Shown here: in pieces, positions 41,901 to 64,000 of the stretch
Layout of the letters: the number at the start of each line of letters is the position of its first letter
How positions within the stretch are numbered: position 1 is the stretch's first letter
Source of the DNA: Siphonodentalium dalli
Taxonomy: Eukaryota; Mollusca; Scaphopoda; Gadilida; Siphonodentaliidae
DNA length: 64,000 nt
Assembly: GCA_032622095.1 (NCBI GenBank)
Contig: CP136061.1
Span: forward strand, 85,100,324-85,164,323
Direction: 5' to 3'
Made by a program: the position numbers and the translations under genes
The notes under the pieces: generated by a model
Seen by the model: the letters and a program-made list of their open reading frames with translations, nothing else
The model's database searches: none
Told to the model about the DNA's origin: nothing

Positions 41901-44900
41901 ATGTCATTTATTTTCACTCAACTGCTACACTTGTGAAGTGTCATTGTTTATACTACACTTTCACACACCATGACACAATATGGCTTTAAGAAAGTGTGAA
42001 AATGAATTAATGTTATCACCTTGCAATCACAATTAACAGCTATTAGTGTTGAAGTTACCTACAGTGCATCTACACATGTCCATTTTACTGACAAAAATCA
42101 GAAGTACTTATTGGGCCGAATGGGGGAGAAATGTATGGTCTATCTTATTTGGACGTTTTTCATATGGCAATCCGGGAGTCTCACTGACAATCCGTGAAAC
42201 ATGAAGGATTGCTATCCTGATGAATACAACAAAACAATATCGGAAAGCCACCCCTATTATGAACACAATGATCGAAGTCCCATTACTATCGCGTAATAAA
42301 TAAGCCGAGAAATCGCAAATCCTCATATGATGTCGTATGAGTAGACTAATTAAAAACATGGAATCGGAGTTAATTGTGTCTATCTGTATGATGTCATCTG
42401 AGTGGCGATGTAAATTGTGGAATTGTCATGTGCATGTGAATGTAATGGAATTACTGTGGGCATGTCAATAACATTGTGTATATGTGGTAAATTGTCATTG
42501 CCTGTTGAGTTATCTTCACTTGGTGATTTGTCATAAGTACTGTTTGGCAATTTATGATTTAGACAAAAATGTTGTTTTAATTTTCCATATACAGGTATAT
42601 GCCCTGAGTGTCCCGTGTAGTCAGTCATTTTTATGTTTACCCATACCATAGTATGGTAAACATAGTGCCATGAAAGTCTTAACATATGTCATTAATACTA
42701 TACCCATGCAAATGTCGGAATACTGAAATGTAATTTCTTGTCTATGATCTTTGTGTATATAAAAATCTACACAAAATGTGTAAGCGATATATTTTGATTT
42801 TATGCAAACAGTTGTGTATAAATGTGTATAAATTTACCAATTTATTGTGTAAGAATTGTTACAAAATTTGTGTACGTATATGAAACTACACATATACTGC
42901 ACACATATGTTTAAGATAAAAAAATGAATAAAAAACCTACACGTTAGTCATAAGAGTGTAATAAACGGCCATGCACCATTCTATAGTAGTTCACTCAAAA
43001 ACTTAGAAAATCGCACTAAAGTATAATGGAGCCTTTTTCAAAAAGTGAAAACAAAATGAATGACGTTTCTGGAACAGGTCGATTTGGACCCATTTTGGAC
43101 TCTGGATTCCCCAAAAGTCGTCCCTTTCGTGTGTAGCATAATGGGTATTTTATGAATCAGCATTTGAATAAAAAGGTATGGCCTCGTCTTTGATAAGGAT
43201 AGTTTGTTGAATGAGATGTGAGCATGTACAACATTTATTCATAGTTCGCGCATTACATATTGAATAAACAAATTCATGGTGCTTTCTTATCAGTTGGTCA
43301 ATGATCGGGGTTAGGTTTGAGATGGGGTAGCCACAACAGGATCACGGCTTCAGTGTACATAATATCTGTATGGTATGTATCATATGTATCGAATTTGGTT
43401 GAAATCAACAGCGTATATGATATAAGCCACAAGTTCTGACCGTTTCAGAGAAGATCTGGTGACAAGCAGTTAATCCCAAAAATATGAATTTCGAGGGCCA
43501 TAAATCTGGTATTTTTCAAGAGATTTTCAAAATTTGAACACCAACACGAACGCCATGATCCAGGGAATGGATGTATGAGTTTAGTGGGAATCAACAGCAA
43601 TATTTGTTTTGGAAAATTTCACCCCCACCCTAACCAAAAAATGTAAGTCCGACCCTGTCCAAAATAGTTTTGTGTAGTATATTGACAATGGCCAGCACAA
43701 CCATAGAAACTGAATAGCAGTTAATCCTTGTGAATTTTACATACTTTAATTTGGAGATGTGCTTTGCTGTAGATGTTGTCATTCATTTGTTTTTTCCAAC
43801 TTTTAAACCTTTTGTTACAACTGACACCTTTTTTGTTGACCGATATTTTTTCATTCCCGACAAGTTTCCGTTGAAAAATAGTTTCCTCATTAGGTCCAGG
43901 TTTTCTGACAGAAAGAGATATGTTTGACCATTGAAACTATACTTTAAGGTTGGAAGTCTTAATTTGTCGCTATTATGTTCCTGATTTGTAATAATCCATT
44001 GATTAAATATTTAAATAAGCCTGACAAGTTAGTTGAACACCTAGTCGAAAATCTACGGGATAAAGATATACATTCAATGTACATGTTGAATAGTCAATTT
44101 TGGACTATTCCTAACCATACATGTGCTTAGTTACAGGGTGCTTAGGCTGTGTGTACATATTTTAGGCCATAAACACCTGTGTTAATGCATATTGGATGTA
44201 ACAAAACCTATGTTTTTCTGTTCTAGAGTTATTCATCTTTGTTTATTTGGAAGTGTTGCTTTTTTGTCCGTATCTACACCACTGGTTGACAGATATCAAT
44301 ACAATTTGGTATTCAATTAATTGAGTGTTCAATCGTTTGTTTTGTTTGTTCTGGTGTTATTTATCTTTGTTTATATGAAAATGTTGGTTTTTTTTCCCTG
44401 TCTGAGCAGATATCTCAACCATACTTAGTCGGTTCGAATTTTCCGCGGTGGGGGTTTGCCAGCATCGCCGGTGCGATCTCTTGTTCACAATTGATTTTGA
44501 TACATCAAAATTGTTGCTGGGATATTTTCAAAACCAGTGGAATAAGAAACATACCAATGACCCATTAAAACACAACCCTTATGTATATTACTTGATGTAT
44601 TTAAGACATTCAACTTTCCGAGTTCCTAATCGCTCCATTGACTCTAACACTTGAAATTATTTTCCGTTCATCTTGAGCTACAGTGTCATTGACATTTTCA
44701 TTGTTCATATCCAATATCTCGCAAAAACAGTATTGAAAAATATTGTATGTTATATAGTACTAAAATTTTGCAAAGAACTGGAGAATCTGATAAAGTCTCA
44801 AACATGGATTCGTTGGAACCATGGATAGACGAAAATCAGAATAAATCTGGTCAAGATCGATCGACGGTTAACACAGTTCACTCACTTTATGTAGGTATGA

Positions 44901-47900
44901 ACTGCAGCTGTGGAAGTAGGTCACACATTAACAATATCACAAAAAAACATGCACGACCCAAACCACTTCATCCTTCACCATCTTACCAAGGGCATCAAAA
45001 GAAGTGATGAATTTCACGGATGTCAGATTAGATTATTGAGTTCTTGATAATTTCAGGGGTGACTCATAATGGTGGCTGCAGCTCTAGTACACCTATAACA
45101 AACCAGTGTGCTGCAACTCTGTCATGTCAAGGAGACCTATGCTTATGTGCAGACATTAGTAATGAGTACTGGAATGGAGCCACCTGTCAATCAAGTTAGT
45201 TCAATTTATTCACATCAATATTACTATTATCATCTCGTTATCTGAAGGTAAACTAAAAATGATTTCTTCTTAGAACAGTGGTACCATAGTGCATAACAAT
45301 TTGAGATTCACCTTAACCTATTTGTGTGTTACGTTGTTTTATTTTTGGCCATTGTTCGTTTATGCAGGAATTATGGTTAACACTATTTTTTAGGCAAAGT
45401 TTCCCCCTGAGAACTTGAGTAACTTTTTCTGCTGGAACACCATAATTGATATAAGTTATATAAGTTATTGATCAGCTACATGTAACTGGACTAATTTGTG
45501 AATGAACATTCGGGCAACATGTGCCATAGGTGAGTATAAATGTCGACTGACTGAAGAAAGATAGCAGTATTATAATTATATCCCTTTTTTGTATTTTTTT
45601 TTTTTATTATATAAAATAGGGGGTATATACTGTTTCTCATGTTTACTTGCGTCCGTCCTTGCATCGGGGCATCCATCGGTGTGTCGGGGCATCCGTCGTT
45701 GCGTAGGTGTGTCTGTCCAATCTCTATTCAGGTTATACAGTGAACAGTAGTGCTTGGATCTCAATGAAATTTCATATTGCTGTTCACTATTATGAGGACA
45801 TTTAATGGCATGTTCAATAAAGAGTTATTCATCTTCGTTTATCTGAAAATGATGATTTTTGGGTCCGTCTGCCTGCCTACCTCAGTTATAGGTTATAGAT
45901 ATGCCTACACTAGGTAGTATGCCACATGGGGGGTATGCTTTAGACGACAGTCCATTTCTTGTTATATCCCCGCAATGAAGTTGTGTGGGGGTATACTGGA
46001 ATCAGCTGTACCGTCCATCTGTCCATTGTCCATGGACACAAATTTGTCCAGAGTTTTTCTCAGTTGTTTTTTGATCATTTTCTGTGAAGCTTGGCACAGA
46101 CAACATCTACCACGGGAACCTGTGATTATGAAGTGTGTTGGACTTTTTTTGGTGGCATTATCCCCTTTTTTCGACCCAGAAAATGTTCGTAACATGTATA
46201 ATTTTGTCCGAGCTTTTATTCCTACATTTTAAGGGCAATGTTTTTGAAACATGGCACAGAGATTTAGTACCATAGAAACCTATGCACATGCGATTATGAC
46301 GTCTGTCCGACTTCTTTTTTGTGGAGTTATTCCCCTTTTTCGACTTAGAATATTTTCGCATCATGCATAATTTTGCCTGAGCTTTTATTCCTACATTTTT
46401 CGGTCAATAGGTTTAGGATTAGGGTTAGGGTTGTGCACATGCATGGGAATCTGTTATTCTATTATTTTAACTAAATTTTTACTGACCTGTGAACATATTA
46501 GTGTTTTAAAAACACGGGGGGGGGGGGTATCCTTATTCCCATTGGGACAGTGACACCTCTAGTTTTTGGCCTGGAACTGTACTTCATTTATAATATCTCA
46601 TTGAAATAAACTATCTGTTCTCCGGCAATTAGATGTAAATTTTTAAATGAGGGAAGGAGGCTATTTAAAAAAAATAAGTTTGGTTTGGGATATAGTAATG
46701 GGCTCCGTGAATCCAGTGAGTCCATCCATAAGAACTTTGTAGCTCTATATCTTGTTATCAAAATTGATTTTCGTTGTTCATATCCAATATTTCTCACATA
46801 AAATATTGAAAAATATTGCATTTTTGATATTACTAAAATTTTGCAAAGAACTGGAGAATCTGATAAAGTCTCAAACATGGATTCGTTGGTACCATGGATA
46901 GAAGAAAAGCAGAATAAATCGGGTCAAGATCGGTCAATGGTCAACACTGTTGACCCACTTTCTGTAGTTATGAACTGCAGCTGTGGAAGTAGGTCGCACA
47001 TTAACAATATCTAAAAAAACATGCACGACCCAAACCACTTGTCGTAACCTTCATCTTCCACCTTCTTACCAAGGGCATCAAAAGAAGTGATGAATTTCAC
47101 GGATGTCAGATTAGATTATTGAGTTCTTGATAATTTCAGGGGTGACTCATAATGGTGGCTGCAGCTCTAGTACACCTATAGCAAACCAGTGTGCTGCAAC
47201 TCTGTCATGTCAAGGAGACCTATGCTTATGTGCAGACATTAGTAATGAGTACTGGAATGGAGCCACCTGTCAATCAAGTTAGTTCAATTTATTCACATCA
47301 ATATTACTATTATCATCTCGTTATCTGAAGGTAAACTAAAAATGATTTCTTCTTAGAACAGTGGTACCATAGTGCATAACAATTTGAGATTCACCTTAAC
47401 CTATTTGTGTGTTACGTTGTTTTATTTTTGGCCATTGTTCGTTTATGCAGGAATTATGGTTAACACAATTTTTTAGGCAAAGTTTCCCCCTGAGAACTTG
47501 AGAAACTTTTCTGATGGAACACCATAATTGATATAAGTTATATAAGTTATTGATCAGCTACATGTAACTGGACTAATTTGTGAATGATCATTCGTGCCAC
47601 ATGTGCCATAGGTGAGTATAAATGTCGACTGACTGTAGAAAGATAGCAGTATTATAATTATACCCCCCCTTTTTTAGCTATTGCCATGGATTGGCATCTG
47701 TCGTCCGTGTGTGCGTGTGTATGTGTGTCCGTGTGTGATGCGTCAACAATTTCCTTTAGCACAGGCTACAGGTCGTACCTTTGGTCGGATCATTATAAAA
47801 TTTGTCATGGCTGTTGACATTGACATGTAGATGGGAACGAGTTATTTTGGGTTCATTCGGGAAAAAAACATGGCCGCCAGTGGCCATCTTGGATTTCAAT

Positions 47901-50900
47901 ATTCAATCCATTAGCACGGGCTACAGGTCGTACTGTTCGTCTGATCATCATGAAATTTGTCATGGATGTTAATATTGACATGTAGATGGGAACGAGTAAT
48001 TTTGGGGTTGTTCGGCCAAAAAACATGGCCACCAGCTGCCATCTTAGATTTTACTCTTTGCATGACTAAATTCTCTGGCACGGCCTACAGGTCATACCTT
48101 TGATCGGATTATGATAAATTTTTTCATGGATGTTAACAATGACATGTAGATGGGAACGAGTCATTGTGGGGTCATTCGGCAAAAAAACTTGGCCGCCAGC
48201 AGCCATTTTGGATTTTACTCTTTGTATGACTAAATCCTTTAGCACAGGCTACAGGTCGTACCTTTAGTCTGATCATCATGAAATTTGTCATGGCTGTTGA
48301 AATTGGAATGTAGATGGGAACGAGTCATTTTGGGGTCGTTCGGACAAAAAACATGGCCGCCAGCGGCCATCTTGGATTTCAAAATTTAATCCATTAGCAC
48401 GGGCCACAGGTCGTACTGTTCGTCTGATCATCATGAAATTTGTCATGGATGATAATATTGACATGTAGATGGGAACGAGTAATTTTGGGGTCATTCGGCC
48501 AAAAAACATGGCCGCCAGCAGCCATCTTGAATTTTACTCTTTGTATGACTAAATACTTTAGCATGGGCTGCAGGTCGTACCTTTAGTCTGATCATCATAA
48601 AATTTGTCATGGATATTAACAATTACATGTAGATGGGATACGAGTAATTTTGGGGTCATTCGGCCAAAAAACATGGTCGCCATCAGCCATCTTGGATTTT
48701 ACTCTTTGTATGACTAAATCCTTTAGCACGGGTTACAGGTCCTACTTTTAGTCTGATCATCATAAAATTTGTCAAGAATGTTAATAATGACATGTAGATG
48801 GGAACGAGTCATTTTGGGGTCATTCGGCCAAAAAACATGGCCACCAGCAGCCATCTTGGATTTTACTCTTTGTATGACTAAATCCTTTAGCACAGGCTAC
48901 AGGTCGTACCTTTAGTCTGATCATCATAAAATTTGTCATGAATGATAATAATGACATGTAGATGGGAACGAGTCATTTTGGGGTCATTCGGCCAAAAAAC
49001 ATGGCCGCCAGCAGCCATCTTGAATTTTACTCTTTGTATGACTAAATTCTTTAGCATGGGCTACAGGTCGTACCTTTAGTCTGATCGTCATAACATTAGT
49101 CATGAATGTTAACAATGACATGTAGATGGGAACGAGTCATTTTGGGGTCATTCGGCCAAAAAACATGGCCGCCAGCAGCCATCTTGAATTTTACTCTTTG
49201 TATGACTAAATTCTTTAGCATGGGCTACAGGTCGTACCTTTAGTCTGATCGTCATGACATTTGTCATGGATGTAAACGATGACATGTAGATGGGAAAGAC
49301 TCATTTTGGGGTCATACGGCCAAAAAACATGGCAGCCAGCAGCCATCTTGGATTTTACTTTTTCTCTTCATGTCTATAAACTAGTATTAGACATTCAACT
49401 TTCCACATTCCTAATCGCTCCATTGACTGTAATACATTAAATTATTCCCTTTCCAAGTTGAGCTACAGTGTCATTGACACTTTCATTTGTTATTATTATT
49501 ATTATATAAAAAAGGGGGTGTATACTGTTTCTCATCTTTTTTTGCGTCCGTCCTTGCATCGGGGCATCCATCGGTGCATCGGGGCATCCGTCGGTTCGTA
49601 GGTGTGTCTGTCCAATCTCTGTTCAGGTTATACAGTGAACAGTAGTGCTTGGATCTCAGTGAAATTTCATATTGCTGTTCACTATTATGAGGACATTTAA
49701 TGGAGCGTTCAATCAAGAGTTATTCATCTTCGTTTATCTGAAAATGATGATTTTTGGGTCCGTCTGCCTGCCTACCTCAGTTATAGGTTATAGATATGCC
49801 TACACTAGGTCGTATGCCACATAGGGGGGTATGCTTTAGACGATAGTCCATTTCTTGTTATATTTCCGCAATGAAGTTGTGTGGGGGTATACTGGAATCA
49901 GCTCGTCCATCCATCCATCCATCCATCGTCCATGGACACAAATTTGTCCAGAGTTTTTCTCAGTTGTTTTTACATCATTTTCTGTGAAGCTTGGCACAGA
50001 CAACAACCACCATGGGAACCTGTGCACCTGTGATTATGAAGTCTGCTGGACTTTTTTTGGTGGCATTCTCCCCCTTTTTCAACCCAGAAATTTTTCGCAA
50101 CATGTATAATTTTGTCCGGGCTTTTATTCCTACATTTTAAAGGCAATGTTCTTGAAACATGGCACAGAGATTTAGTACCATAGGAACCTGTGCACATGCG
50201 ATTATGACGTCTTTCCGACTTTTTTGTGTGGAGTTAATCCCCTTTTCCGACTTAGAACATTTTCGCAACATGCATAATTTTGCCTGAGGTTTTATTCCTA
50301 CATTTTTCGGTCAATAGGTTTAGGATTAGGGTTAGGGGTCAGGGTTGTGCACATGCATGGGAATCTGTTATTCTATTATTTTAACTAAATTTTTACTGAT
50401 CTGTGAACATCTTAGTGTTTTAAAAACATGGGGGGGGGGTATCCTTATTCCCATTGGGACAGTCACACCTCTAGTTTTTGGCCTGGAACTGTACTCCATT
50501 TATAATATCTCATTAAAATAAACTATCTGTTCTCCGGCAATTAGATGTAAATTTTTAAATGAGGGAAGGAGGCTATTTAAAAAAATGAAGTTTGATGTGG
50601 GATATAGTAATGGGCTCCGTCCATCCAGTGAGTCCATCCATAAGAACTTTGTAGCTCTATATCTTGTTATCAAAATTGATTTTCGTTGTTCATATCCAAT
50701 ATTTCTCACATAAAATATTGAAAAATATTGCATTTTTGATATTACTAAAAGTTTGCAAAGAACTGGAGAATCTGATAAAGTCTCAAACATGGATTCGTAG
50801 GTACCATGGATAGAAGAAAAGCAGAATAAATCGGGTCAAGATCGGTCAATGGTCAACACTGTTGACCCACTTTCTGTAGTTATGAACTGCAGCTGTGGAA

Positions 50901-56900: not shown

Positions 56901-59900
56901 TATCAAAATTGATTTTCGTTGTTCATATCCAATATTTCTCACATAAAATATTGAAAAATATTGTATTTTATATATTACTAAAAGTTTGCAAAGAACTGGA
57001 GAATCTGATAAAGTCTCAAACATGGATTCGTAGGTACCATGGATAGAAGAAAAGCAGAATAAATCGGGTCAAGATCGGTCAATGGTCAACACTGTTGACC
57101 CACTTTCTGTAGTTATGAACTGCAGCTGTGGAAGTAGGTCAAACATTACATTATCTAAAAAAACATGCACGACCCAAACCACTTGTCGTAACCTTCATCT
57201 TCCACCTTCTTACCAAGGGCATCAAAAGAAGTGATGAATTTCACGGATTTCAGATTAGATTATTGAGTTTGTGATAATTTCAGGGGTGACTCATAATGGT
57301 GTCTGCAGCTCTAGTACACCTATAGCAAACCAGTGTGCTGCAACTCTGTCATGTCAAGGAGACCTATGCTTATGTGCAGACATTAGTAATGAGTACTGGA
57401 ATGGAGCCACCTGTCAATCAAGTTAGTTCAATTTATTCACATCAATATTACTATTATCATCTCGTTATCTGAAGGTAAACTAAAAATGATTTCTTCTTAG
57501 AACAGTGGTACCATAGTGCATAACAATTTGAGATTCACCTTAACCTATTTGTGTGTTACGTTGTTTTATTTTTGGCCATTGTTCGTTTATGCAGGAATTA
57601 TGGTTAACACTATTTTTTAGGCAAAGTTTCCCCCTGAGAACTTGAGTAACTTTTTCTGCTGGAACACCATAATTGATAAAAGTTATATAAGTTATTGATC
57701 AGCTACATGTAACTGGACTAATTTGTGAATAAACATTCGTGCCATAGGTGAGTATAAATGTCGACTGACAGTAGAAAGATAGCAGTATTATAATTATACT
57801 CCTTTTTTTTTATTATATAAAATAGGGGGTGTATACTGTTTCTCATGTTTACTTGCATCCGTCCTTGCATCGGGGCATCCATCGGGGCATCCACCGTTGC
57901 GTAGGTGTGTCTGTCCGATCTCTGTTCAGGTTATACAGTGAACAGTAGTGCTTGGATCTCAATGAAATTTCATATTGCTGTTCACTATTATGAGGACATT
58001 TAATGGTGTGTTCAATCAAGAGTTATTTATCTTCGTTTATCTGAAAATGATGATTTTTGGGTCCGTCTGCCTGCCTACCTCAGTTATAGGTTATAGATAT
58101 GCCTACACTAGGTGGTATGCCACATAGGGGGGTATGCTTTAGACGACAGTCCATTTCTTGTTATATTTCCGCAATGAAGTTGTGTGGGGGTATACTGGAA
58201 TCAGCTCGTCCATCCATCCATCCATCCATCGTCCATGGACACAAATTTGTCCAGAGTTTTTCTCAGTTGTTTTTACATCATTTTCTGTGAAGCTTGGCAC
58301 AGACAACAACCACCATGGGAACCTTTGCACCTGTGATTATGAAGTCTGCTGGACTTTTTTTGGTGGCATTCTCCCCCTTTTTCAACCCAGAAATTTTTCG
58401 CAACATGTATAATTTTGTCCGAGCTTTTATTGCTACATTTTAAAGGCAATGTTCTTGAAACATGGCACAGAGATTTAGTACCATAGGAACCTGTGCACAT
58501 GCGATTATGACGTCTGTCCGACTTTTTTGTGTGGAGTTAATCCCCTTTTCCGACTTAGAACATTTTCGCAACATGCATAATTTTGCCTGAGGTTTTATTC
58601 CTACATTTTTCGGTCAATAGGTTTAGGATTAGGGTTAGGGGTCAGGGTTGTTCACATGCATGGGAATCTGTTATTCTATTATTTTAACTAAATTTTTACT
58701 GATCTGTGAACATCTTCGTGTTTTAAAAACATGGGGGGGGGGGGGGTATCCTTATTCCCATTGGGACAGTCACACCTCTAGTTTTTGGCCTGGAACTGAA
58801 CTCCATTTATAATATCTCATTAAAATAAACTATCTGTTCTCCGGCAATTAGATTGAAATTTTTAAATGAGGGAAGGAGGCTATTTAAAAAAATGAAGTTT
58901 GGTGTGGGATATAGCAATGGGCTCCGTACATTCAGCGAGTCCATCCATAAGAACTTTGTAGCTCTATATCTTGTTATCAAAATTGATTTTCGTTGTTCAT
59001 ATCCAATATTTCTCACATAAAATATTGAAAAATATTGTATTTTATATATTACTAAAAGTTTGCAAAGAACTGGAGAATCTGATAAAGTCTCAAACATGGA
59101 TTCGTAGGTACCATGGATAGAAGAAAAGCAGAATAAATCGGGTCAAGATCGGTCAATGGTCAACACTGTTGACCCACTTTCTGTAGTTATGAACTGCAGC
59201 TGTGGAAGTAGGTCAAACATTACATTATCTCAAAAAACATGCACGACCCAAACCACTTGTCGTAACCTTCATCTTCCACCTTCTTACCAAGGGCATCAAA
59301 AGAAGTGATGAATTTCACGGATTTCAGATTAGATTATTGAGTTTGTGATAATTTCAGGGGTGACTCATAATGGTGGCTGCAGCTCTAGTACACCTATAGC
59401 AAACCAGTGTGCTGCAACTCTGTCATGTCAAGGAGACCTATGCTTATGTGCAGACATTAGTAATGAGTACTGGAATGGAGCCACCTGTCAATCAAGTTAG
59501 TTCAATTTATTCACATCAATATTACTATTATCATCTCGTTATCTGAAGGTAAACTAAAAATGATTTCTTCTTAGAACAGTGGTACCATAGTGCATAACAA
59601 TTTGAGATTCACCTTAACCTATTTGTGTGTTACGTTGTTTTATTTTTGGCCATTGTTCCATTATGCAGGAATTATGGTTAACACTATTTTTTAGGCAAAG
59701 TTTCCCCCTGAGAACTTGAGTAACTTTTTCTGCTGGAACACCATAATTGATAAAAGTTATATAAGTTATTGATCAGCTACATGTAACTGGACTAATTTGT
59801 GAATAAACATTCGTGCCATAGGTGAGTATAAATGTCGACTGACAGTAGAAAGATAGCAGTATTATAATTATACTCCTTTTTTTTTTATTATATAAAATAG

Positions 59901-62900
59901 GGGGTGTATACTGTTTCTCATGTTTACTTGCGTCCGTCCTTGCATCGGGGCATCCATCGGGGCATCCACCGTTGCGTAGGTGTGTCTGTCCGATCTCTGT
60001 TCAGGTTATACAGTGAACAGTAGTGCTTGGATCTCAATGAAATTTCATATTGCTGTTCACTATTATGAGGACATTTAATGGTGTGTTCAATCAAGAGTTA
60101 TTTATCTTCGTTTATCTGAAAATGATGATTTTTGGGTCCGTCTGCCTGCCTACCTCAGTTATAGGTTATAGATATGCCTACACTAGGTGGTATGCCACAT
60201 AGGGGGGTATGCTTTAGACGACAGTCCATTTCTTGTTATATTTCCGCAATGAAGTTGTGTGGGGGTATACTGGAATCAGCTCGTCCATCCATCCATCCAT
60301 CCATCGTCCATGGACACAAATTTGTCCAGAGTTTTTCTCAGTTGTTTTTACATCATTTTCTGTGAAGCTTGGCACAGACAACAACCACCATGGGAACCTG
60401 TGCACCTGTGATTATGAAGTCTGCTGGACTTTTTTTGGTGGCATTCTCCCCCTTTTTCAACCCAGAAATTTTTCGCAACATGTATAATTTTGTCCGGGCT
60501 TTTATTCCTACATTTTAAAGGCAATGTTCTTGAAACATGGCACAGAGATTTAGTACCATAGGAACCTGTGCACATGCGATTATGACGTCTTTCCGACTTT
60601 TTTGTGTGGAGTTAATCCCCTTTTCCGACTTAGAACATTTTCGCAACATGCATAATTTTGCCTGAGGTTTTATTCCTACATTTTTCGGTCAATAGGTTTA
60701 GGATTAGGGTTAGGGGTCAGGGTTGTTCACATGCATGGGAATCTGTTATTCTATTATTTTAACTAAATTTTTACTGATCTGTGAACATCTTAGTGTTTTA
60801 AAAACATGGGGGGGGGGGGGGTATCCTTATTCCCATTGGGACAGTCACACCTCTAGTTTTTGGCCTGGAACTGTACTCCATTTATAATATCTCATTAAAA
60901 TAAACTATCTGTTCTCCGGCAATTAGATTGAAATTTTTAAATGAGGGAAGGAGGCTATTTAAAAAAATGAAGTTTGGTGTGGGATATAGCAATGGGCTCC
61001 GTACATTCAGCGAGTCCATCCATAAGAACTTTGTAGCTCTATATCTTGTTATCAAAATTGATTTTCGTTGTTCATATCCAATATTTCTCACATAAAATAT
61101 TGAAAAATATTGTATTTTATATATTACTAAAAGTTTGCAAAGAACTGGAGAATCTGATAAAGTCTCAAACATGGATTCGTAGGTACCATGGATAGAAGAA
61201 AAGCAGAATAAATCGGGTCAAGATCGGTCAATGGTCAACACTGTTGACCCACTTTCTGTAGTTATGAACTGCAGCTGTGGAAGTAGGTCAAACATTACAT
61301 TATCTCAAAAAACATGCACGACCCAAACCACTTGTCGTAACCTTCATCTTCCACCTTCTTACCAAGGGCATCAAAAGAAGTGATGAATTTCACGGATTTC
61401 AGATTAGATTATTGAGTTTGTGATAATTTCAGGGGTGACTCATAATGGTGGCTGCAGCTCTAGTACACCTATAGCAAACCAGTGTGCTGCAACTCTGTCA
61501 TGTCAAGGAGACCTATGCTTATGTGCAGACATTAGTAATGAGTACTGGAATGGAGCCACCTGTCAATCAAGTTAGTTCAATTTATTCACATCAATATTAC
61601 TATTATCATCTCGTTATCTGAAGGTAAACTAAAAATGATTTCTTCTTAGAACAGTGGTACCATAGTGCATAACAATTTGAGATTCACCTTAACCTATTTG
61701 TGTGTTACGTTGTTTTATTTTTGGCCATTGTTCCATTATGCAGGAATTATGGTTAACACTATTTTTTAGGCAAAGTTTCCCCCTGAGAACTTGAGTAACT
61801 TTTTCTGCTGGAACACCATAATTGATAAAAGTTATATAAGTTATTGATCAGCTACATGTAACTGGACTAATTTGTGAATAAACATTCGTGCCATAGGTGA
61901 GTATAAATGTCGACTGACAGTAGAAAGATAGCAGTATTATAATTATACTCCTTTTTTTTTTATTATATAAAATAGGGGGTGTATACTGTTTCTCATGTTT
62001 ACTTGCGTCCGTCCTTGCATCGGGGCATCCATCGGGGCATCCACCGTTGCGTAGGTGTGTCTGTCCGATCTCTGTTCAGGTTATACAGTGAACAGTAGTG
62101 CTTGGATCTCAATGAAATTTCATATTGCTGTTCACTATTATGAGGACATTTAATGGTGTGTTCAATCAAGAGTTATTTATCTTCGTTTATCTGAAAATGA
62201 TGATTTTTGGGTCCGTCTGCCTGCCTACCTCAGTTATAGGTTATAGATATGCCTACACTAGGTGGTATGCCACATAGGGGGGTATGCTTTAGACGACAGT
62301 CCATTTCTTGTTATATTTCCGCAATGAAGTTGTGTGGGGGTATACTGGAATCGGCTCGTCCATCCATCCATCCATCCATCGTCCATGGACACAAATTTGT
62401 CCAGAGTTTTTCTCAGTTGTTTTTACATCATTTTCTGTGAAGCTTGGCACAGACAACAACCACCATGGGAACCTGTGCACCTGTGATTATGAAGTCTGCT
62501 GGACTTTTTTTGGTGGCATTCTCCCCCTTTTTCAACCCAGAAATTTTTCGCAACATGTATAATTTTGTCCGAGCTTTTATTGCTACATTTTAAAGGCAAT
62601 GTTCTTGAAACATGGCACAGAGATTTAGTACCATAGGAACCTGTGCACATGCGATTATGACGTCTGTCCGACTTTTTTGTGTGGAGTTAATCCCCTTTTC
62701 CGACTTAGAACATTTTCGCAACATGCATAATTTTGCCTGAGGTTTTATTCCTACATTTTTCGGTCAATAGGTTTAGGATTAGGGTTAGGGGTCAGGGTTG
62801 TTCACATGCATGGGAATCTGTTATTCTATTATTTTAACTAAATTTTTACTGATCTGTGAACATCTTCGTGTTTTAAAAACATGGGGGGGGGGGTATCCTT

Positions 62901-63642
62901 ATTCCCATTGGGACAGTCACACCTCTAGTTTTTGGCCTGGAACTGAACTCCATTTATAATATCTCATTAAAATAAACTATCTGTTCTCCGGCAATTAGAT
63001 TGAAATTTTTAAATGAGGGAAGGAGGCTATTTAAAAAAATGAAGTTTGGTGTGGGATATAGCAATGGGCTCCGTACATTCAGCGAGTCCATCCATAAGAA
63101 CTTTGTAGCTCTATATCTTGTTATCAAAATTGATTTTCGTTGTTCATATCCAATATTTCTCACATAAAATATTGAAAAATATTGTATTTTATATATTACT
63201 AAAAGTTTGCAAAGAACTGGAGAATCTGATAAAGTCTCAAACATGGATTCGTAGGTACCATGGATAGAAGAAAAGCAGAATAAATCGGGTCAAGATCGGT
63301 CAATGGTCAACACTGTTGACCCACTTTCTGTAGTTATGAACTGCAGCTGTGGAAGTAGGTCAAACATTACATTATCTCAAAAAACATGCACGACCCAAAC
63401 CACTTGTCGTAACCTTCATCTTCCACCTTCTTACCAAGGGCATCAAAAGAAGTGATGAATTTCACGGATTTCAGGTTAGATTATTGAGTTTGTGATAATT
63501 TCAGGGGTGACTCATAATGGTGGCTGCAGCTCTAGTACACCTATAGCAAACCAGTGTGCTGCAACTCTGTCATGTCAAGGAGACCTATGCTTATGTGCAG
63601 ACATTAGTACCGAGTACTGGGATGGAGCCACCTGTCAATCAA
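8869..63642 (+). CDS. Secreted multi-EGF-like-module protein, 14 exons in window, 3' incomplete
   Basis: The gene model joins 14 exons: 8869-8901, 15318-15357, 23569-23688, 32533-32679, 35550-35672, 45057-45194, 47140-47277, 51051-51188, 53134-53271, 55211-55348, 57284-57421, 59358-59495, 61433-61570 and 63505-63642. Every intron begins GT and ends AG. The first intron is phase 0 and all later ones are phase 1, so the frame stays open for 568 codons. Residues 1-23 form a signal peptide (charged MK, hydrophobic core, VHA before the likely cleavage point). Twelve modules follow, each with the pattern C-x(4-9)-C-x5-C-x(4-8)-C-x-C-x(11-13)-C and a YWD/YWN motif before the last Cys. The CxC between Cys4 and Cys5 and the aromatic-x-G near the end fit EGF-like folds. 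EB-type or other lophotrochozoan Cys-rich modules are an alternative. The likely location is extracellular. A transmembrane segment or C-terminal domain may lie beyond the window. Partner and function are unknown. Confidence 0.8.
8951..9076. mobile_element. Hairpin repeat just inside intron 1
   Basis: GGAAATGTTCAGATAATAAG and its complement (about 8998-9052) form a strong stem. The left flank CATTGATGAGTAGTT-like sequence matches 15080-15130, so this is a second copy of the element at 15062-15275. Confidence 0.5.
9077..9913. other. Intron 1 sequence, nothing recognised
   Basis: No repeat or coding signature is visible. A minus-strand open frame at 9203-9454 has no recognisable motif. Confidence 0.4.
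9915..11434. mobile_element. Possible composite element with 35-40 bp inverted ends
   Basis: CAGGGGGTCGGAAAAAATTT and CCAGGCACGTATGAT at 9917-9951 are matched in inverse by 11395-11434. Next to the right arm lie degenerate tandem copies of GGGTGGGTGTCCAAAA (11250-11370). No transposase is seen. The pair could also be two solitary copies of a short repeat in opposite orientation. Confidence 0.4.
10736..10917. mobile_element. Palindromic MITE (TACAGTAATGCCCTAATTAA ends)
   Basis: Inverted arms of about 61-65 bp (10736-10800 and 10857-10917) differ mainly by a four-base insertion on the left. The loop contains AAATATGGCTTGTTG and CATTCATCGGAAAGCTCTC, also found in the related palindrome at 23158-23305. 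Confidence 0.65.
11435..11807. other. Intron 1 sequence, minor hairpins only
   Basis: GGAAATAACTCTTGTTATAA and its near-complement at about 11560, and AACTTTT-type words, can fold back around 11440-11575. No gene is seen. Confidence 0.35.
11808..12510. mobile_element. MITE with about 65-bp inverted arms
   Basis: The left arm (11808-11868) includes CCAGCTAAGATATTGGGATA and GATGCTGTGTTTACG. The right arm (12443-12510) is its inverse with few changes. The 570-bp interior is AT-rich and non-coding. Confidence 0.6.
12511..13776. other. Intron 1 sequence with old element cores
   Basis: About 12770-12910 and 13640-13750 resemble cores of the elements at 28846-29885 (ATCTCAATAAAATTTTG, TTCTAGAGTTATTC). 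They are diverged fragments of that family. No coding sequence is recognised. Confidence 0.4.
13777..14636. mobile_element. Non-autonomous piggyBac-like element
   Basis: The element starts TTAACACGTTTACTGCC and ends with the inverse of TTAACACGTTCACTGCC (one mismatch in 17), with TTAA at both edges, the target site of piggyBac elements. The 860-bp interior has six copies of an 18-bp palindrome CTACGAGTTAACTCGTAG or its ATAACT variant (13933, 14000, 14168, 14206, 14559, 14601). It also has an inner inverted repeat (13921-14233). Open frames at 14263-14457 and 14315-14569 do not resemble a transposase. Confidence 0.65.
14637..15058. other. Intron 1 sequence with a short direct repeat
   Basis: Two imperfect copies of about 58 bp (AGTGTTCAGATACTAACT and GTGTTCGGATACCAACT) lie at about 14940-15045. 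Nothing else is recognised. Confidence 0.4.
15062..15275. mobile_element. MITE adjacent to exon 2
   Basis: The ends TCTTTCTATACTAAAT and ATTTAGTATAGAAAGGG are inverse. The interior is related to the hairpin at 8951-9076. It ends about 40 bp before the exon 2 acceptor, so it may overlap the branch-point region. Confidence 0.5.
15318..15357 (+). CDS. Exon 2: second half of signal peptide
   Basis: This 40-bp exon lies between a TTCACAG acceptor and a GTAAGT donor. It reads VTCSVLTNSVHAV plus one base of a split Gly codon (G|GC) completed by exon 3. Joined to exon 1 it gives a hydrophobic leader ending V-H-A, a standard signal peptidase site after residue 23. It enters in phase 0 and leaves in phase 1, which matches the phase of all the downstream module exons. 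An inverted-repeat element ends about 40 bp upstream of the acceptor. Confidence 0.7.
15358..16720. other. Intron 2 sequence, nothing recognised
   Basis: No supported repeat or gene. A minus-strand frame at 16300-16500 has no motif that can be recognised. Confidence 0.4.
16721..17960. repeat. Cluster of TTTGCGCTTAAGCGCAAA palindromes
   Basis: GCTTAAGCG-type words and half-sites recur at about 16727-16766, 16940-17025, 17200-17250, 17285-17340 and 17878-17950. One is a perfect 20-bp palindrome at 17321-17340. Between 17461 and 17822 lies an imperfect tandem duplication of about 200 bp (CAGCATC(T/C)CTGTCCC, CCAGAG(C/A)TCTAGTATATT). Confidence 0.6.
17979..18590. repeat. 205-bp tandem repeat, three copies
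   Basis: Copies begin CATACATGAAA at 17979, 18184 and 18390. Each contains CTACAGGTCTGGGTGAACCA, repeated GATCGGGCTAAAATAGACCG and GGGAGTAGGCCTACT. Confidence 0.85.
18591..19865. other. Intron 2 sequence, nothing recognised
   Basis: AT-rich with a short TATATATAAATATATATG run near 19030. The + frame at 19083-19283 has a hydrophobic start but no splice or homology support, so it is not called as a gene. Confidence 0.4.
19866..20663 (+). mobile_element. Pearl-like element copy B, 5' part
   Basis: The 5' hairpin end and several core units are present, stopping within a core unit after GCAGCCATCTTGG. The matching 3' part in the same orientation begins near 21912, so B and that part may be one element split by about 1.25 kb of other DNA. 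Confidence 0.65.
20664..21068 (+). mobile_element. HINE-like element with GTTTACCCATACCATG head
   Basis: It starts TTTTTATGTTTACCCATACC, with its complement GTATGGTAAACATAG forming a 5' hairpin, then a (TCCG)n stretch. It ends with ATGTCATTGACATTGTCATTT, a 3' hairpin like that of the pearl-like family. It is inserted in pearl-like copy B. A solitary head of the same kind is at 42630-42667. Confidence 0.55.
21069..21911. other. Intron 2 sequence within the split pearl-like element
   Basis: No gene is seen. A short piece of the hairpin family (CCAGTGCATTCTCTTATATA) lies at about 21730-21749. Confidence 0.4.
21912..22326 (+). mobile_element. Pearl-like element, 3' part
   Basis: Three core units are followed by the standard 3' end TAAGTTGAGCTACAGTGTCA and TTGACACTTTCATTT. 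It lacks a 5' end of its own, which fits its being the rest of copy B. Confidence 0.6.
22488..23051. mobile_element. MITE with 37-bp perfect inverted ends
   Basis: 22488-22524 and 23015-23051 are exact inverse copies, starting ATACCTTACTCGTATTTAAA. Just inside the left arm, CAGTTTTGAATTCGCGC (22532-22548) and its complement near 22573-22590 form a second stem. Perfect ends suggest fairly recent activity. Confidence 0.65.
23158..23305. mobile_element. Perfect palindrome related to the 10736-10917 MITE
   Basis: AATATGGCTTGTTGCCATTC and what follows, up to 23199, is mirrored exactly up to about 23229. It ends with GGGCATTACTGTA, the same end as the element at 10736-10917. It appears to be a copy that lost one arm and duplicated the other. 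Confidence 0.55.
23569..23688 (+). CDS. Exon 3: EGF-like module 1
   Basis: This 120-bp phase 1-1 exon lies between a CATTTCAG acceptor and a GTGAGT donor. It begins FDGDC and carries six Cys with spacings 4, 5, 5, 1 and 11, ending with TTYWDGTNC. It is the first module after the signal peptide and follows it by only a few residues. It stays open throughout, and its Cys order matches exons 4, 5 and 6. The following intron contains a decayed Crypton-type gene. Confidence 0.85.
23925..25050 (+). pseudogene. Decayed Crypton-type (DUF3504-like) recombinase gene fragment
   Basis: Readable pieces in the + direction are: FDDLPPPDLPVMQFF near 23955; SSFGQISQNYVDTFIND near 24150; IESDMRLFLLRTGG near 24270; FLAVVKKANGDDYEPDTIR near 24368; SSLERYLRSKGYRDSVNRNP near 24868; KLQESDELMDNDIEATI near 24990. 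The order and the words (FL-V+K-x-G-x-x-YEPDTI, SSLERYL, L-D-DIE) recall the N-terminal part of Crypton-derived tyrosine recombinase genes common in marine invertebrates, from general memory of the family. Several stops and frame changes are seen: a 43-bp insertion near 24196, a one-base shift near 24262, and a minisatellite expansion after DTIR. It lies in the intron after exon 3 and has no catalytic domain in view. A domesticated host gene relative is possible. Confidence 0.55.
24372..24862. repeat. 44-bp minisatellite grown from Crypton-like coding sequence
   Basis: About eleven units of roughly 44 bp contain GGGGATGATTATGAGCC, GGGTACGATTAGGGTAAGAA. The first unit is the coding stretch KKANGDDYEPDTIR. 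The unit length is not a multiple of three, so the array breaks the frame. The upstream and downstream parts of the old gene resume directly at its edges. Confidence 0.8.
25266..26739 (+). mobile_element. Pearl-like element copy D, complete
   Basis: It has the 5' hairpin (AGCTCAACTTACTTTGTAAG), about eight core units and the full 3' end (TTGAGCTACAGTGTCATTGA, CACTTTCATTTT). Its short open frames are translations of the core repeat. Confidence 0.65.
26740..28250. other. Intron 3 sequence with one GC-rich patch
   Basis: 26875-26960 is unusually GC-rich with repeated CGCGGGC, GCCCGCG and CCCGCGT words that can fold back. At 27811-27817, CTTTATT on the + strand is AATAAAG on the minus strand, which could be a poly(A) signal of an antisense transcript, but no minus-strand exons are supported. 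The + frame at 27886-28125 is not recognised. Confidence 0.35.
28255..28700. mobile_element. MITE with interrupted inverted arms
   Basis: Outer arms (CCGGTGAATCTGAT at 28261 and its inverse near 28686) and inner arms (TTGGCGATTATCGCAATACG at 28291 with its inverse near 28573-28597) are matched. The centre is AT-rich and non-coding. Confidence 0.55.
28846..29885 (+). mobile_element. Tandem-core HINE-like element (X family)
   Basis: The head has GGGGTATACTG and (TCCG)n. The core is about five units of roughly 165 bp with TGTTCATGTCATAAC, ATCTCAATGAAATTTGGTAT, GGATGTTCAC and TTCTAGAGTTAT. The end is GGTATGCCACTAGGGGGTAT followed by GACAGTCCATCTCTTGTT. A single-core version of this element is part of each exon-array unit (for example 45590-45962). 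It has no coding capacity. Confidence 0.6.
29886..31840. other. Intron 3 sequence, mostly unrecognised
   Basis: A solitary 3' end of the pearl-like kind (CTACAGTGTCATTCACACTT, TCATTTT) is at 30708-30735. No coding sequence is supported. Confidence 0.4.
31845..31990. repeat. Cluster of AACTGCGGT inverted words
   Basis: ACCGCAGTTA and TAACTGCGGT alternate at least seven times within about 145 bp and can form several alternative stems. It ends next to TTACTTAGGGCATAACAGTA, similar to the end of the MITE at 10736-10917. Confidence 0.5.
31991..32532. other. Intron 3 end, nothing recognised
   Basis: AT-rich sequence leading to the exon 4 acceptor (CATTTTTCAG). Confidence 0.4.
32533..32679 (+). 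CDS. Exon 4: EGF-like module 2
   Basis: This 147-bp phase 1-1 exon lies between a TTTTTCAG acceptor and a GTAAGT donor. It starts QTFNDAC and has six Cys with spacings 7, 5, 8, 1 and 13. It is the longest module, owing to a larger Cys3-Cys4 loop and an extended YWDSVSNAC end in which the usual YWDG Gly is replaced by Ser. The split codon joining it to exon 3 is A|GA (Arg). Confidence 0.85.
32949..33602. repeat. 23-bp minisatellite in intron 4
   Basis: About 28 tandem units of CTTTACTGTGTTATCAATAA plus AAG run without spacers. Variants include GTTGTC for GTTATC, AAATC for AAAGC and ACAG for ACTG. A multi-unit pattern of variants recurs, with similar strings near 33210-33370 and 33350-33490, suggesting duplication of blocks of units. 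Confidence 0.9.
33657..34131 (+). mobile_element. Y-family HINE-like element
   Basis: The head TACCCCCTGCAATGTGTTGT and GAGGGTATACTGGAG forms a 5' hairpin. The core has about two units with TCCTATATTTTTTGGTCAAT, CATGGGAACCTGTG and GACTTTTTTTGTG. The end contains GGGGGTATTTGTTAGTCCCA. The same family is in each exon-array unit. Confidence 0.55.
34190..34388. mobile_element. Hairpin element, copy in intron 4
   Basis: The left end is AACCCTTTCATGATGGGCGC and the right end CTCCAGTCATGGAAGGGTTA. The interior holds CATTCTATTATATATGCGAG arms. It is the same family as 2395-2612. Confidence 0.65.
34672..35095. mobile_element. Foldback element with GAATGAGGTCCCC arms
   Basis: The ends CTGGATATAGTGTGTCAGAG and its inverse (35058-35095) enclose two inner palindromes of the GGTGAATTTAGTGA(C/T)GCTA type, as in the element at 2720-2972. 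No clear target duplication is seen. Confidence 0.55.
35150..35415 (-). repeat. Dispersed repeat, about 260 bp (copy 2, inverted)
   Basis: This is the reverse complement match to 1625-1885. Shared words on the minus strand include AGTAAATATTTACAATTGAT, ACGATGTTTTCTAT and ATATGCCTTTAAA. It lies about 135 bp upstream of exon 5. Confidence 0.55.
35550..35672 (+). CDS. Exon 5: EGF-like module 3, sequon-rich
   Basis: This 123-bp phase 1-1 exon lies between a TTGATCAG acceptor and a GTATGT donor. It starts LSFNETC and has six Cys with spacings 5, 5, 4, 1 and 11, ending SDYWDGTNC. It holds several N-x-S/T sequons (NET, NGT, NAS), suggesting N-glycosylation of this module; the amplified module lacks them. 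The junction codon from exon 4 is C|GA (Arg). Confidence 0.85.
35673..36526. other. Intron 5 sequence, nothing recognised
   Basis: AT-rich sequence with no supported repeat or coding frame. Confidence 0.4.
36536..37416. mobile_element. Mutator-like element, 9-bp target duplication
   Basis: The element begins AAGCCTTGAAATAATT and ends with the near-inverse (TTATTTCAAGCCTTG). GATACACTC flanks it on both sides (36527-36535 and 37417-37425). Left-end words CTGTCAAAATGACAGACACC resemble the inner arms of 2720-2972, so both belong to one family. The interior of about 880 bp has no transposase; frames at 36896-37093 and 37298-37480 are unrecognised. Confidence 0.6.
37426..39735. other. Intron 5 sequence, nothing recognised
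   Basis: Two related segments near 38960-39030 and 39125-39190 share TTTGGATGTGATCA, GGTTACAGTTG or GGCTACAGTTG and TCAAAATTTAACA. This suggests an imperfect tandem repeat of about 170 bp. No gene is seen. Confidence 0.4.
39736..41635 (+). mobile_element. Pearl-like element copy E, complete
   Basis: It has the 5' hairpin, about ten core units and the 3' end (TTGAGCTACAGTGTCATTGA). One core unit near 41280-41400 is rearranged, with a truncated joint between unit types. Confidence 0.65.
41636..44190. other. Intron 5 sequence with element fragments
   Basis: A solitary GTTTACCCATACCATAG-type hairpin head lies at 42630-42667. At 42160-42205 are GGGAGTCTCACTGACAATCC words like those at 810-895. 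43430-43700 resembles an old element core. No coding sequence is recognised. Confidence 0.4.
44195..44702 (+). mobile_element. HINE-like element abutting the exon array
   Basis: The core has TTCTAGAGTTATTCATCTTT and the end is CTTGAGCTACAGTGTCATTG followed by ACATTTTCATT. Its 3' terminus coincides with the first base of homology of array unit 1 at 44703. Confidence 0.5.
45057..45194 (+). CDS. Exon 6: amplified EGF-like module, array copy 1
   Basis: This 138-bp phase 1-1 exon lies between a TAATTTCAG acceptor and a GTTAGT donor. It starts VTHNGGC and has six Cys with spacings 9, 5, 4, 1 and 12, ending with EYWNGATC. It is the most upstream of nine near-identical exons. It differs from all the others by Thr (ACA) instead of Ala (GCA) in the Cys1-Cys2 loop. 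The exon 5 junction codon is C|GG (Arg). Confidence 0.87.
45590..45962 (+). mobile_element. X-family element within array unit 1
   Basis: The head is AAAATAGGGGGTATATACTG, with a CGTCCGTCC and CATCGGGGCATCC stretch. There is a single core (ATCTCAATGAAATTTCATAT, AAGAGTTATTCATCTTCG). The end is GGTAGTATGCCACATGG followed by GACAGTCCATTTCTTGTT. An equivalent copy is in every unit at the same place, so it was present before amplification. Confidence 0.6.
45963..46560 (+). mobile_element. Y-family element within array unit 1
   Basis: The head ATATCCCCGCAATGAAGTTG and GTGGGGGTATACTGG forms a hairpin. There are two to three core units with TTTTATTCCTACATTTT and ATGGCACAGAGATTTAGTAC. The end is GGGGGTATCCTTATTCCCAT followed by GACACCTCTAGTTTTT. 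It directly follows the X element in every unit. The CATCC tandem in its head varies slightly between units. Confidence 0.6.
47140..47277 (+). CDS. Exon 7: amplified module, array copy 2
   Basis: The 138-bp exon has identical borders and the consensus reading (Ala in loop 1, YWN). The A|GG split codon joins it to copy 1 through Arg. The intron downstream of this copy, alone in the array, carries a pearl-like insertion of about 1.8 kb, so the distance to the next exon is 3911 bp rather than about 2075. Confidence 0.87.
47670..49488 (+). mobile_element. Pearl-like element copy F inside array unit 2
   Basis: About ten core units and the 3' end (TTGAGCTACAGTGTCATTGA) are present. The 5' end reads TTTTTTAGCTATTGCCATGG. 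Compared with the other copies, the hairpin between the two AGCT words is missing, as if removed between short direct repeats. No other array unit in the window carries it. Confidence 0.7.
50688..52770 (+). repeat. Exon-array unit 3 (2083 bp)
   Basis: It holds exon 8 (51051-51188), then X- and Y-family elements without a pearl-like insertion, and a 12-G tract. A long T run (about 18) stands at the X-element head. Confidence 0.9.
51051..51188 (+). CDS. Exon 8: amplified module, array copy 3
   Basis: The 138-bp exon is read as the consensus module (Ala in loop 1, EYWNG). Acceptor, donor and phase are the same as in the other copies. No stop or indel is seen. Confidence 0.87.
52771..54847 (+). 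repeat. Exon-array unit 4 (2077 bp)
   Basis: It holds exon 9 (53134-53271) and the longest G tract (17). It shares TTTGCACC and ATTGCTACA variants in the Y element with units 5 and 6. Confidence 0.9.
53134..53271 (+). CDS. Exon 9: amplified module, array copy 4 (YWD variant)
   Basis: The 138-bp exon is like the consensus except for AAT to GAT in the last loop, giving EYWDG. This is the same YWD form found in the non-amplified modules of exons 3-5. It shares this change with copies 5 and 9. Confidence 0.87.
54848..56920 (+). repeat. Exon-array unit 5 (2073 bp)
   Basis: It holds exon 10 (55211-55348) and a 12-G tract. It is nearly identical to unit 4 over its whole length. Confidence 0.9.
55211..55348 (+). 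CDS. Exon 10: amplified module, array copy 5 (YWD variant)
   Basis: The 138-bp exon is identical in reading to copy 4 (EYWDG). Its flanking intron is also very close to that of copy 4, which suggests a recent duplication of this pair. Confidence 0.87.
56921..58994 (+). repeat. Exon-array unit 6 (2074 bp)
   Basis: It holds exon 11 (57284-57421) and a 14-G tract. It is mosaic: the upstream intron is like units 7-9, while TTCGTTTATGCAGG downstream of the exon is like units 1 and 2. Confidence 0.9.
57284..57421 (+). CDS. Exon 11: amplified module, array copy 6 (Gly to Val)
   Basis: The 138-bp exon carries GGC to GTC just before Cys1, so it starts VTHNGVC; the last loop is YWN. Its upstream intron is of the downstream type (GGATTTCAG and GAGTTTGTG variants shared with copies 7-9). 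Part of its downstream intron resembles copies 1-2, so the unit looks mosaic. Confidence 0.87.
58995..61069 (+). repeat. Exon-array unit 7 (2075 bp)
   Basis: It holds exon 12 (59358-59495) and a 14-G tract. Its Y element shares GTCTTTCCGAC, GTCCGGGC, CATCTTAGTG and CTGTACTCC with unit 2, against all the neighbouring units. Confidence 0.9.
59358..59495 (+). CDS. Exon 12: amplified module, array copy 7
   Basis: The 138-bp exon has the consensus reading (YWN), with the same acceptor, donor and phase as the others. The intron that follows it, around 60.4-60.9 kb, carries several variants otherwise found only in unit 2. Confidence 0.87.
61070..63141 (+). repeat. Exon-array unit 8 (2072 bp)
   Basis: It holds exon 13 (61433-61570) and an 11-G tract. 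GGAATCGGCTCG in the Y head is shared only with unit 3. Confidence 0.9.
61433..61570 (+). CDS. Exon 13: amplified module, array copy 8
   Basis: The 138-bp exon has the consensus reading (YWN) with intact borders. It lies 2075 bp downstream of copy 7. Confidence 0.87.
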
Positions 63643-64000
63643 GTTAGTTCAATTTATTCACATCAATATTACTATTATCATCTCGTTATCTGAAGGTAAA
63701 CTAAAAATGATTTCTTCTTATAACAGTGGTACCATAGTGCATAACAATTTGAGATTCACCTTAACCTATTTGTGTGTTACGTTGTTTTATTTTTGGCCAT
63801 TGTTCGATTATGCAGGAATTATGGTTAACACTATTTTTTAGGCAAAGTTTCCCCCTGAGAACTTGAGTAACTTTTTCTGCTGGAACACCATAATTGATAA
63901 AAGTTATATAAGTTATTGATCAGCTACATGTAACTGGACTAATTTGTGAATAAACATTCGTGCCATAGGTGAGTATAAATGTCGACTGACTAGAAAGATA
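63142..64000 (+). repeat. Exon-array unit 9, cut by window end
   Basis: It holds exon 14 (63505-63642) and intron up to the start of the X-element region. It continues past the right edge, so the copy number in the genome is at least nine. Confidence 0.9.
63505..63642 (+). CDS. Exon 14: amplified module, array copy 9 (most divergent)
   Basis: The 138-bp exon reads ISTEYWDGATC in its last loop, where other copies read ISNEYWNGATC or ISNEYWDGATC. This needs two base changes in one codon (AAT to ACC) plus AAT to GAT. It is the last copy in the window. The donor GTTAGT is intact and the frame remains open, so the gene continues to the right. Confidence 0.85.

Follow-up and report, generated by a model that had tools for sequence, protein, structure and literature searches.

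A 64,000-bp stretch of the genome of the scaphopod Siphonodentalium dalli (assembly GCA_032622095.1, contig CP136061.1, positions 85,100,324 to 85,164,323 of the forward strand; hereafter the window, with positions counted from its first base) ends in a tandem array of nine exon-plus-intron units, each of which carries one 138-bp exon for a small six-cysteine module. The explanation that we favor, and consider probable, is that a single EB/EGF-like exon was amplified in place together with its intron inside a multi-module gene, that the copies are spliced in series and exchange sequence with one another, and that their number varies between alleles.

The array occupies positions 44694 to 64000 on the forward strand, as delimited by a repeat finder and BLAST, and its last unit is cut by the end of the window. 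In the output of the repeat finder, the exon region occurs nine times, with an identity of 96-100%. The nine exons (45057-45194, 47140-47277, 51051-51188, 53134-53271, 55211-55348, 57284-57421, 59358-59495, 61433-61570, and 63505-63642) span positions 45057 to 63642 and were delineated by their open frame and splice-site motifs; each is 138 bp long, in phase 1-1, and preceded by an acceptor ending in ATAATTTCAG and followed by the donor GTTAGT (9/9 exons). The intron of each unit is about 1.93 kb long, giving a whole unit of roughly 2.07 kb, and the pitches between successive units are 2083, 3911, 2083, 2077, 2073, 2074, 2075, and 2072 bp. A preliminary description of this DNA had reported the nine 138-bp phase 1-1 exons, their AG acceptor and GTTAGT donor, and the pitch of 2072-2083 bp, all of which were reproduced here. 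Its start for the array, 44703, was accurate to about 9 bp, as unit 1 aligns with later units from 44694 onwards when a BLAST query starting further left is used. It had also recognized that the array runs off the window: homology among the units reaches the window end, where unit 9 is cut after 861 bp. The long interval of 3911 bp, which it had ascribed to an insertion, indeed reflects a single insertion: about 1.8 kb of sequence (about 47676-49489) interrupts the intron of unit 2, and was found in no other unit of the window.

The reading frame is open across all nine exons in phase 1-1 only, while the two other frames contain 2 and 3-5 stops per exon. Each exon encodes 46 residues, the commonest form being RVTHNGGCSSSTPIANQCAATLSCQGDLCLCADISNEYWNGATCQS. 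The exon is symmetric, and every unit is equipped with an acceptor and a donor of its own; whole units can therefore be gained or lost in frame, with a change in protein length of 46 residues per unit, so that each extra unit would add 46 amino acids. The copies differ in few residues: exon 6 has a Gly to Val change beside the first cysteine, and units 4, 5, and 9 (53134-53271, 55211-55348, and 63505-63642) encode YWDG where the other six encode YWNG. The Asp at this position is also present in all three upstream modules described below.

Mutually exclusive splicing likewise requires homologous exons in tandem that agree in length and phase. In Dscam, such exons are alternatives, of which one is taken per transcript. 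We consider it quite improbable that the exons of this array are used in the same manner. No pair of them differs at more than 4 of the 138 bases, so that a choice between them would yield almost no protein diversity, and the frame of symmetric exons survives without any exclusion. Moreover, the modules upstream of the array are evidently single, serial ones.

These upstream modules place the array within a larger gene. When both strands of the window were scanned for a six-cysteine pattern, 13 stretches fitted it. Nine are the array exons, three lie upstream (23583-23678, 32553-32672, and 35570-35665), and one is at 29920. An AG acceptor and a GT donor, both in phase, flank 12 of the 13, which are the modules; the stretch at 29920 has neither. 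The three upstream exons are all on the forward strand and in phase 1-1, and measure 120 bp (23569-23688, with a GTGAGT donor), 147 bp (32533-32679), and 123 bp (35550-35672); in the same order, their modules share 41, 31, and 33% identity with the array module. When profiles were built without the module type in question (four runs), the upstream exons were recovered at E-values of 8.8e-7, 1.1e-6, and 3.4e-8; for the nine array exons the values ranged from 5.1e-7 to 4e-5, and the best non-module open reading frame (ORF) across the four runs reached 0.09. With a profile of all four module types, exactly the 12 module ORFs exceeded the threshold, and the next ORF stood at 0.39. None of 40 first-order Markov resamples of the window contained any such exon, against 12 in the real sequence.

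The presence of divergent modules of the same strand and phase upstream, together with their recovery by the leave-one-out profiles, suggests that, in a gene of several modules, one was amplified, and that the array lies among further exons of the same protein. The preliminary description had proposed intragenic amplification of a symmetric exon with its intron; the upstream exons supply the evidence for a surrounding gene that it lacked. They also add the main new element to its account, namely the order of the modules: diverged modules come first, one at a time, and then a burst of near-identical copies, all in the same direction from left to right.

The histories of the individual units are mosaic. 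Among units 1-8, 37 informative two-state sites were available for a four-gamete test, in which 163 out of 666 site pairs failed, corresponding to at least seven recombination intervals (Rm = 7). When the site order was shuffled 2000 times, only 4 shuffles reached the observed distance between failing pairs. For example, unit 6 matches units 1 and 2 at three sites that surround the exon, and four sites close to the intron end have the same state in unit 7 as in unit 2. The mosaic variants and the incompatible site pairs point to exchange of sequence between units, which supports the homogenization that had been proposed earlier as an alternative to recent duplication. Adjacent units are most alike, a degree of ordering that was reached in 115 of 20000 permutations, and the most diverged units are the two at the left edge of the array; both features are as predicted by unequal exchange. 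Some variants are common to units 2 and 7, 3 and 8, and 4 and 9, but a period of five units was not supported (permutation P = 0.73; P = 1.0 for any offset of 2-5).

Over the whole unit, 104-111 substitutions separate unit 1 from units 2-8, 48-57 separate unit 2 from units 3-8, and 2-22 separate units 3-8 from one another. The closest pairs are units 4 and 5, with 2 substitutions, and units 7 and 8, with 6. Such close pairs could be expected if the array were wholly or partly an artefact of assembly, in the form of false tandem copies or joined haplotypes. We give very little credence to this alternative: every pair among units 1-8 shows differences, of 2-111 substitutions, which makes a simple artefact unlikely, neighbors are the most similar units, and the five-unit period that a joined haplotype might have left is unsupported.

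The preliminary description held that exon and intron are about equally conserved, which is correct for the young units (3-8) and incorrect for the old ones (1 and 2). Among units 3-8, variable columns number 2 of 138 in the exon, 7 of 365 in the 5' flank, and 23 of 1569 in the 3' intron. Between units 1 and 2, in contrast, the exon differs at 1 of 138 positions, compared with 29 of 353 and 81 of 1575 in the two flanks (Fisher P = 0.006). The divergence of unit 1 from units 2-8 amounts to 8.2-9.4% in the 5' flank and 4.5-5.1% in the 3' intron, and that from the cut unit 9 to 9.7% and 1.4%, respectively; the corresponding values for unit 2 against units 3-9 are 1.6-3.6% (5' flank) and 2.2-3.0% (3' intron).

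These comparisons bear on the possibility that the array has no function, and represents an intronic, satellite-like expansion, the exon copies of which are left out of all or most transcripts. The equal variation of exon and intron among units 3-8 would fit such an expansion, as would the abundance of tandem repeats in the region and the fact that every change in the exon is nonsynonymous. Nevertheless, we regard it as unlikely, since all nine copies have retained an open frame and intact splice motifs, despite an intron of unit 1 that has diverged by 5-9% in most comparisons and despite many intron indels, and since a comparison of units 1 and 2 shows significantly less change in the exon than elsewhere in the unit.

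Several observations weigh against in-place amplification of a serially spliced exon, and moderate our confidence in it. Over all nine units, the lower variability of the exon (5 of 138 columns, versus 143 of 1933) is not significant (P = 0.12). The five exon substitutions fall in four codons and are all nonsynonymous; the array itself thus gives no direct sign of purifying selection, although the probability of seeing no synonymous change is as high as 0.24-0.29. The first 138 bp of the intron after the exon contain a single variable column, so that the low divergence of the exon may reflect a conversion tract, which would explain it as well as selection would. The first and last exons of the gene were not found in the window, and a scan of the forward strand up to 32.5 kb listed no hydrophobic start exon with a phase-1 donor; a signal peptide in the ORF at 19083-19280, which contains MIGPLLLIFFFSLFVEST, is accordingly not claimed. 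Lastly, the sole Pfam match above its cut-off, Ribosomal_S24e, is foreign to a protein of repeated modules. It was obtained with four joined array modules (35.3 bits, cut-off 24.5), and neither with a single module nor with a string of the four module types, and was judged spurious. A match of this kind could nevertheless lead an automatic pipeline to misname such a protein.

By resemblance, the module is best described as EB/EGF-like. Its cysteine spacing is C-x9-C-x5-C-x4-C-x1-C-x12-C, and the six cysteines and a Tyr-Trp pair are invariant in an alignment of eight sequences. Loosely defined, EGF-like modules have six cysteines, of which the fourth and fifth are separated by a single residue, and the array module shows this arrangement. 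The name "EGF-like", as given in the preliminary description, therefore stands as far as the order of the six cysteines is concerned; it found no counterpart among the EGF family models, none of which was listed up to an E-value of 10 for the array or upstream modules, in a search whose HMMER filters drop most weak matches. The Pfam family EB (PF01683) scored 17.0 bits on the third upstream module (35552-35671) and 14.9 bits on the string of four module types, both below the cut-off of 24.3 bits. No EB match was listed in Pfam for the array module, and a single array module matched no Pfam family at all. The predicted structure of the module had a mean predicted local distance difference test score of 72, a predicted template modelling score of 0.44, and two short strands, and Foldseek returned one PDB match for it, which was not significant (E 7.8). 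By sequence, PDB contained no match for the four-module string and one for the alignment, at E 0.53. NCBIfam gave no match, and Rfam gave none at the gathering score; no tRNA was detected. Among genome contigs, 37 stretches matched a pattern and one passed tblastn (L001, from a metagenome-assembled genome of Nevskia), at an E-value of 4e-7 that is relative to the candidates only. This bacterial stretch of 50 residues has two cysteines and no six-cysteine pattern, and its similarity was judged to be due to chance. In viral contigs, seven stretches fitted a pattern, none of which was confirmed.

Under in-place amplification, tandem duplication of a phase 1-1 six-cysteine exon with about 1.93 kb of intron would have given rise to the array, and later unequal crossing over and gene conversion would have moved sequence between the units. 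Serial splicing of the exons would then yield a single extracellular repeat protein. With a symmetric exon, and with long units so similar that unequal crossing over is favored, alleles would be expected to differ in their number of modules. The kind of module is suggestive of an adhesive or recognition role, in which case the number of repeats may set the valency or reach of the protein.

The arrangement appears to have the same build as the exon arrays of human LPA and DMBT1, and would thus belong to a kind already known from a few human genes. In the KIV-2 array of LPA, 1 to about 40 units of 5.6 kb are found per allele (PMC11462820), and the same article cites work titled on the high conservation of KIV-2 exons and introns. 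Variants present on several KIV-2 copies have been attributed to duplication or gene conversion (PMC4378929). As in S. dalli, this is a coding tandem array within a gene, with domain exons and introns in each unit, located beside single homologous domains (PMC11462820). It differs in that a kringle is spread over two exons in a 5.6-kb unit, while here one EB/EGF-like module, of a different protein, is encoded by one exon in a unit of about 2.07 kb. DMBT1 likewise contains a tandem exon array for extracellular cysteine-rich modules. Its alleles encode 7 to 21 SRCR domains, its short isoform binds bacteria more weakly than the long one, and most transcripts in one cell line agree with the genomic number of repeats (PMC9038570). 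The SRCR domain is a different and larger one, in units of 2.9 kb with more than 79% identity (PMC2588610), compared with the 2-22 substitutions among units 3-8 here. In total, 23 human tandem arrays have been described as lying wholly within genes, each unit containing one or more protein-domain exons (PMC2588610); the S. dalli array shares this feature, in another organism and with another module. Like the units of LPA and DMBT1, its units comprise a whole domain exon with its intron, keep the frame upon gain or loss, and exchange sequence.

Within-gene arrays of whole domain exons are difficult to assemble, yet the number of units alters human proteins with clear effects, as LPA and DMBT1 illustrate. 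The present array offers a clean case with another module. As each full unit in the window is marked by variants of its own, changes in copy number, tracts of conversion, and selection on the number of modules could be measured directly in a natural population. Tentatively, we propose that it encodes a length-polymorphic invertebrate extracellular protein for adhesion or recognition, in which an actively exchanging array of one EB/EGF-like exon would let the number of repeats, and hence reach or valency, vary within the population, as a separate parallel to LPA and DMBT1. Judged from titles and the beginnings of abstracts, the literature searched contained no printed report of such an array, and nothing was found on mollusc EB modules or on duplication of EGF exons in bivalves; in the available text of PMC5379566, "intragenic duplication" denotes neighboring genes.

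The insertion in unit 2, which contains a tandem array of about 164-bp units, belongs to a recurrent element with such a central array and a common 3' end (..GAGCTACAGTGTCATTGACA..). This looks like a satellite-bearing mobile element, of no established class; a 30-base piece of it had no matches in viral contigs. Further pieces are located at 4737-6587, 19898-20669, 21917-22327, 25322-26738, and 39766-41632. A degraded 3' end of the element (44597-44702), 84% identical to 49384-49487, lies at the left edge of the array, where it meets the array start (44694) within about 9 bp. The element may have set the first breakpoint of the array, or may have landed or caused a deletion there later.

The intron of the unit contains an internal duplication whose copies are about 74-80% alike (46118-46408 and the matching place in later units). 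It also resembles 33756-34081, by which a dispersed repeat seems to have been present in the unit before amplification. Of ten further ORFs, including four from unit introns, none had a Pfam match up to an E-value of 0.1. The intron that follows the second upstream module exon contains a 23-bp tandem repeat, present in 28 copies at 32954-33599.

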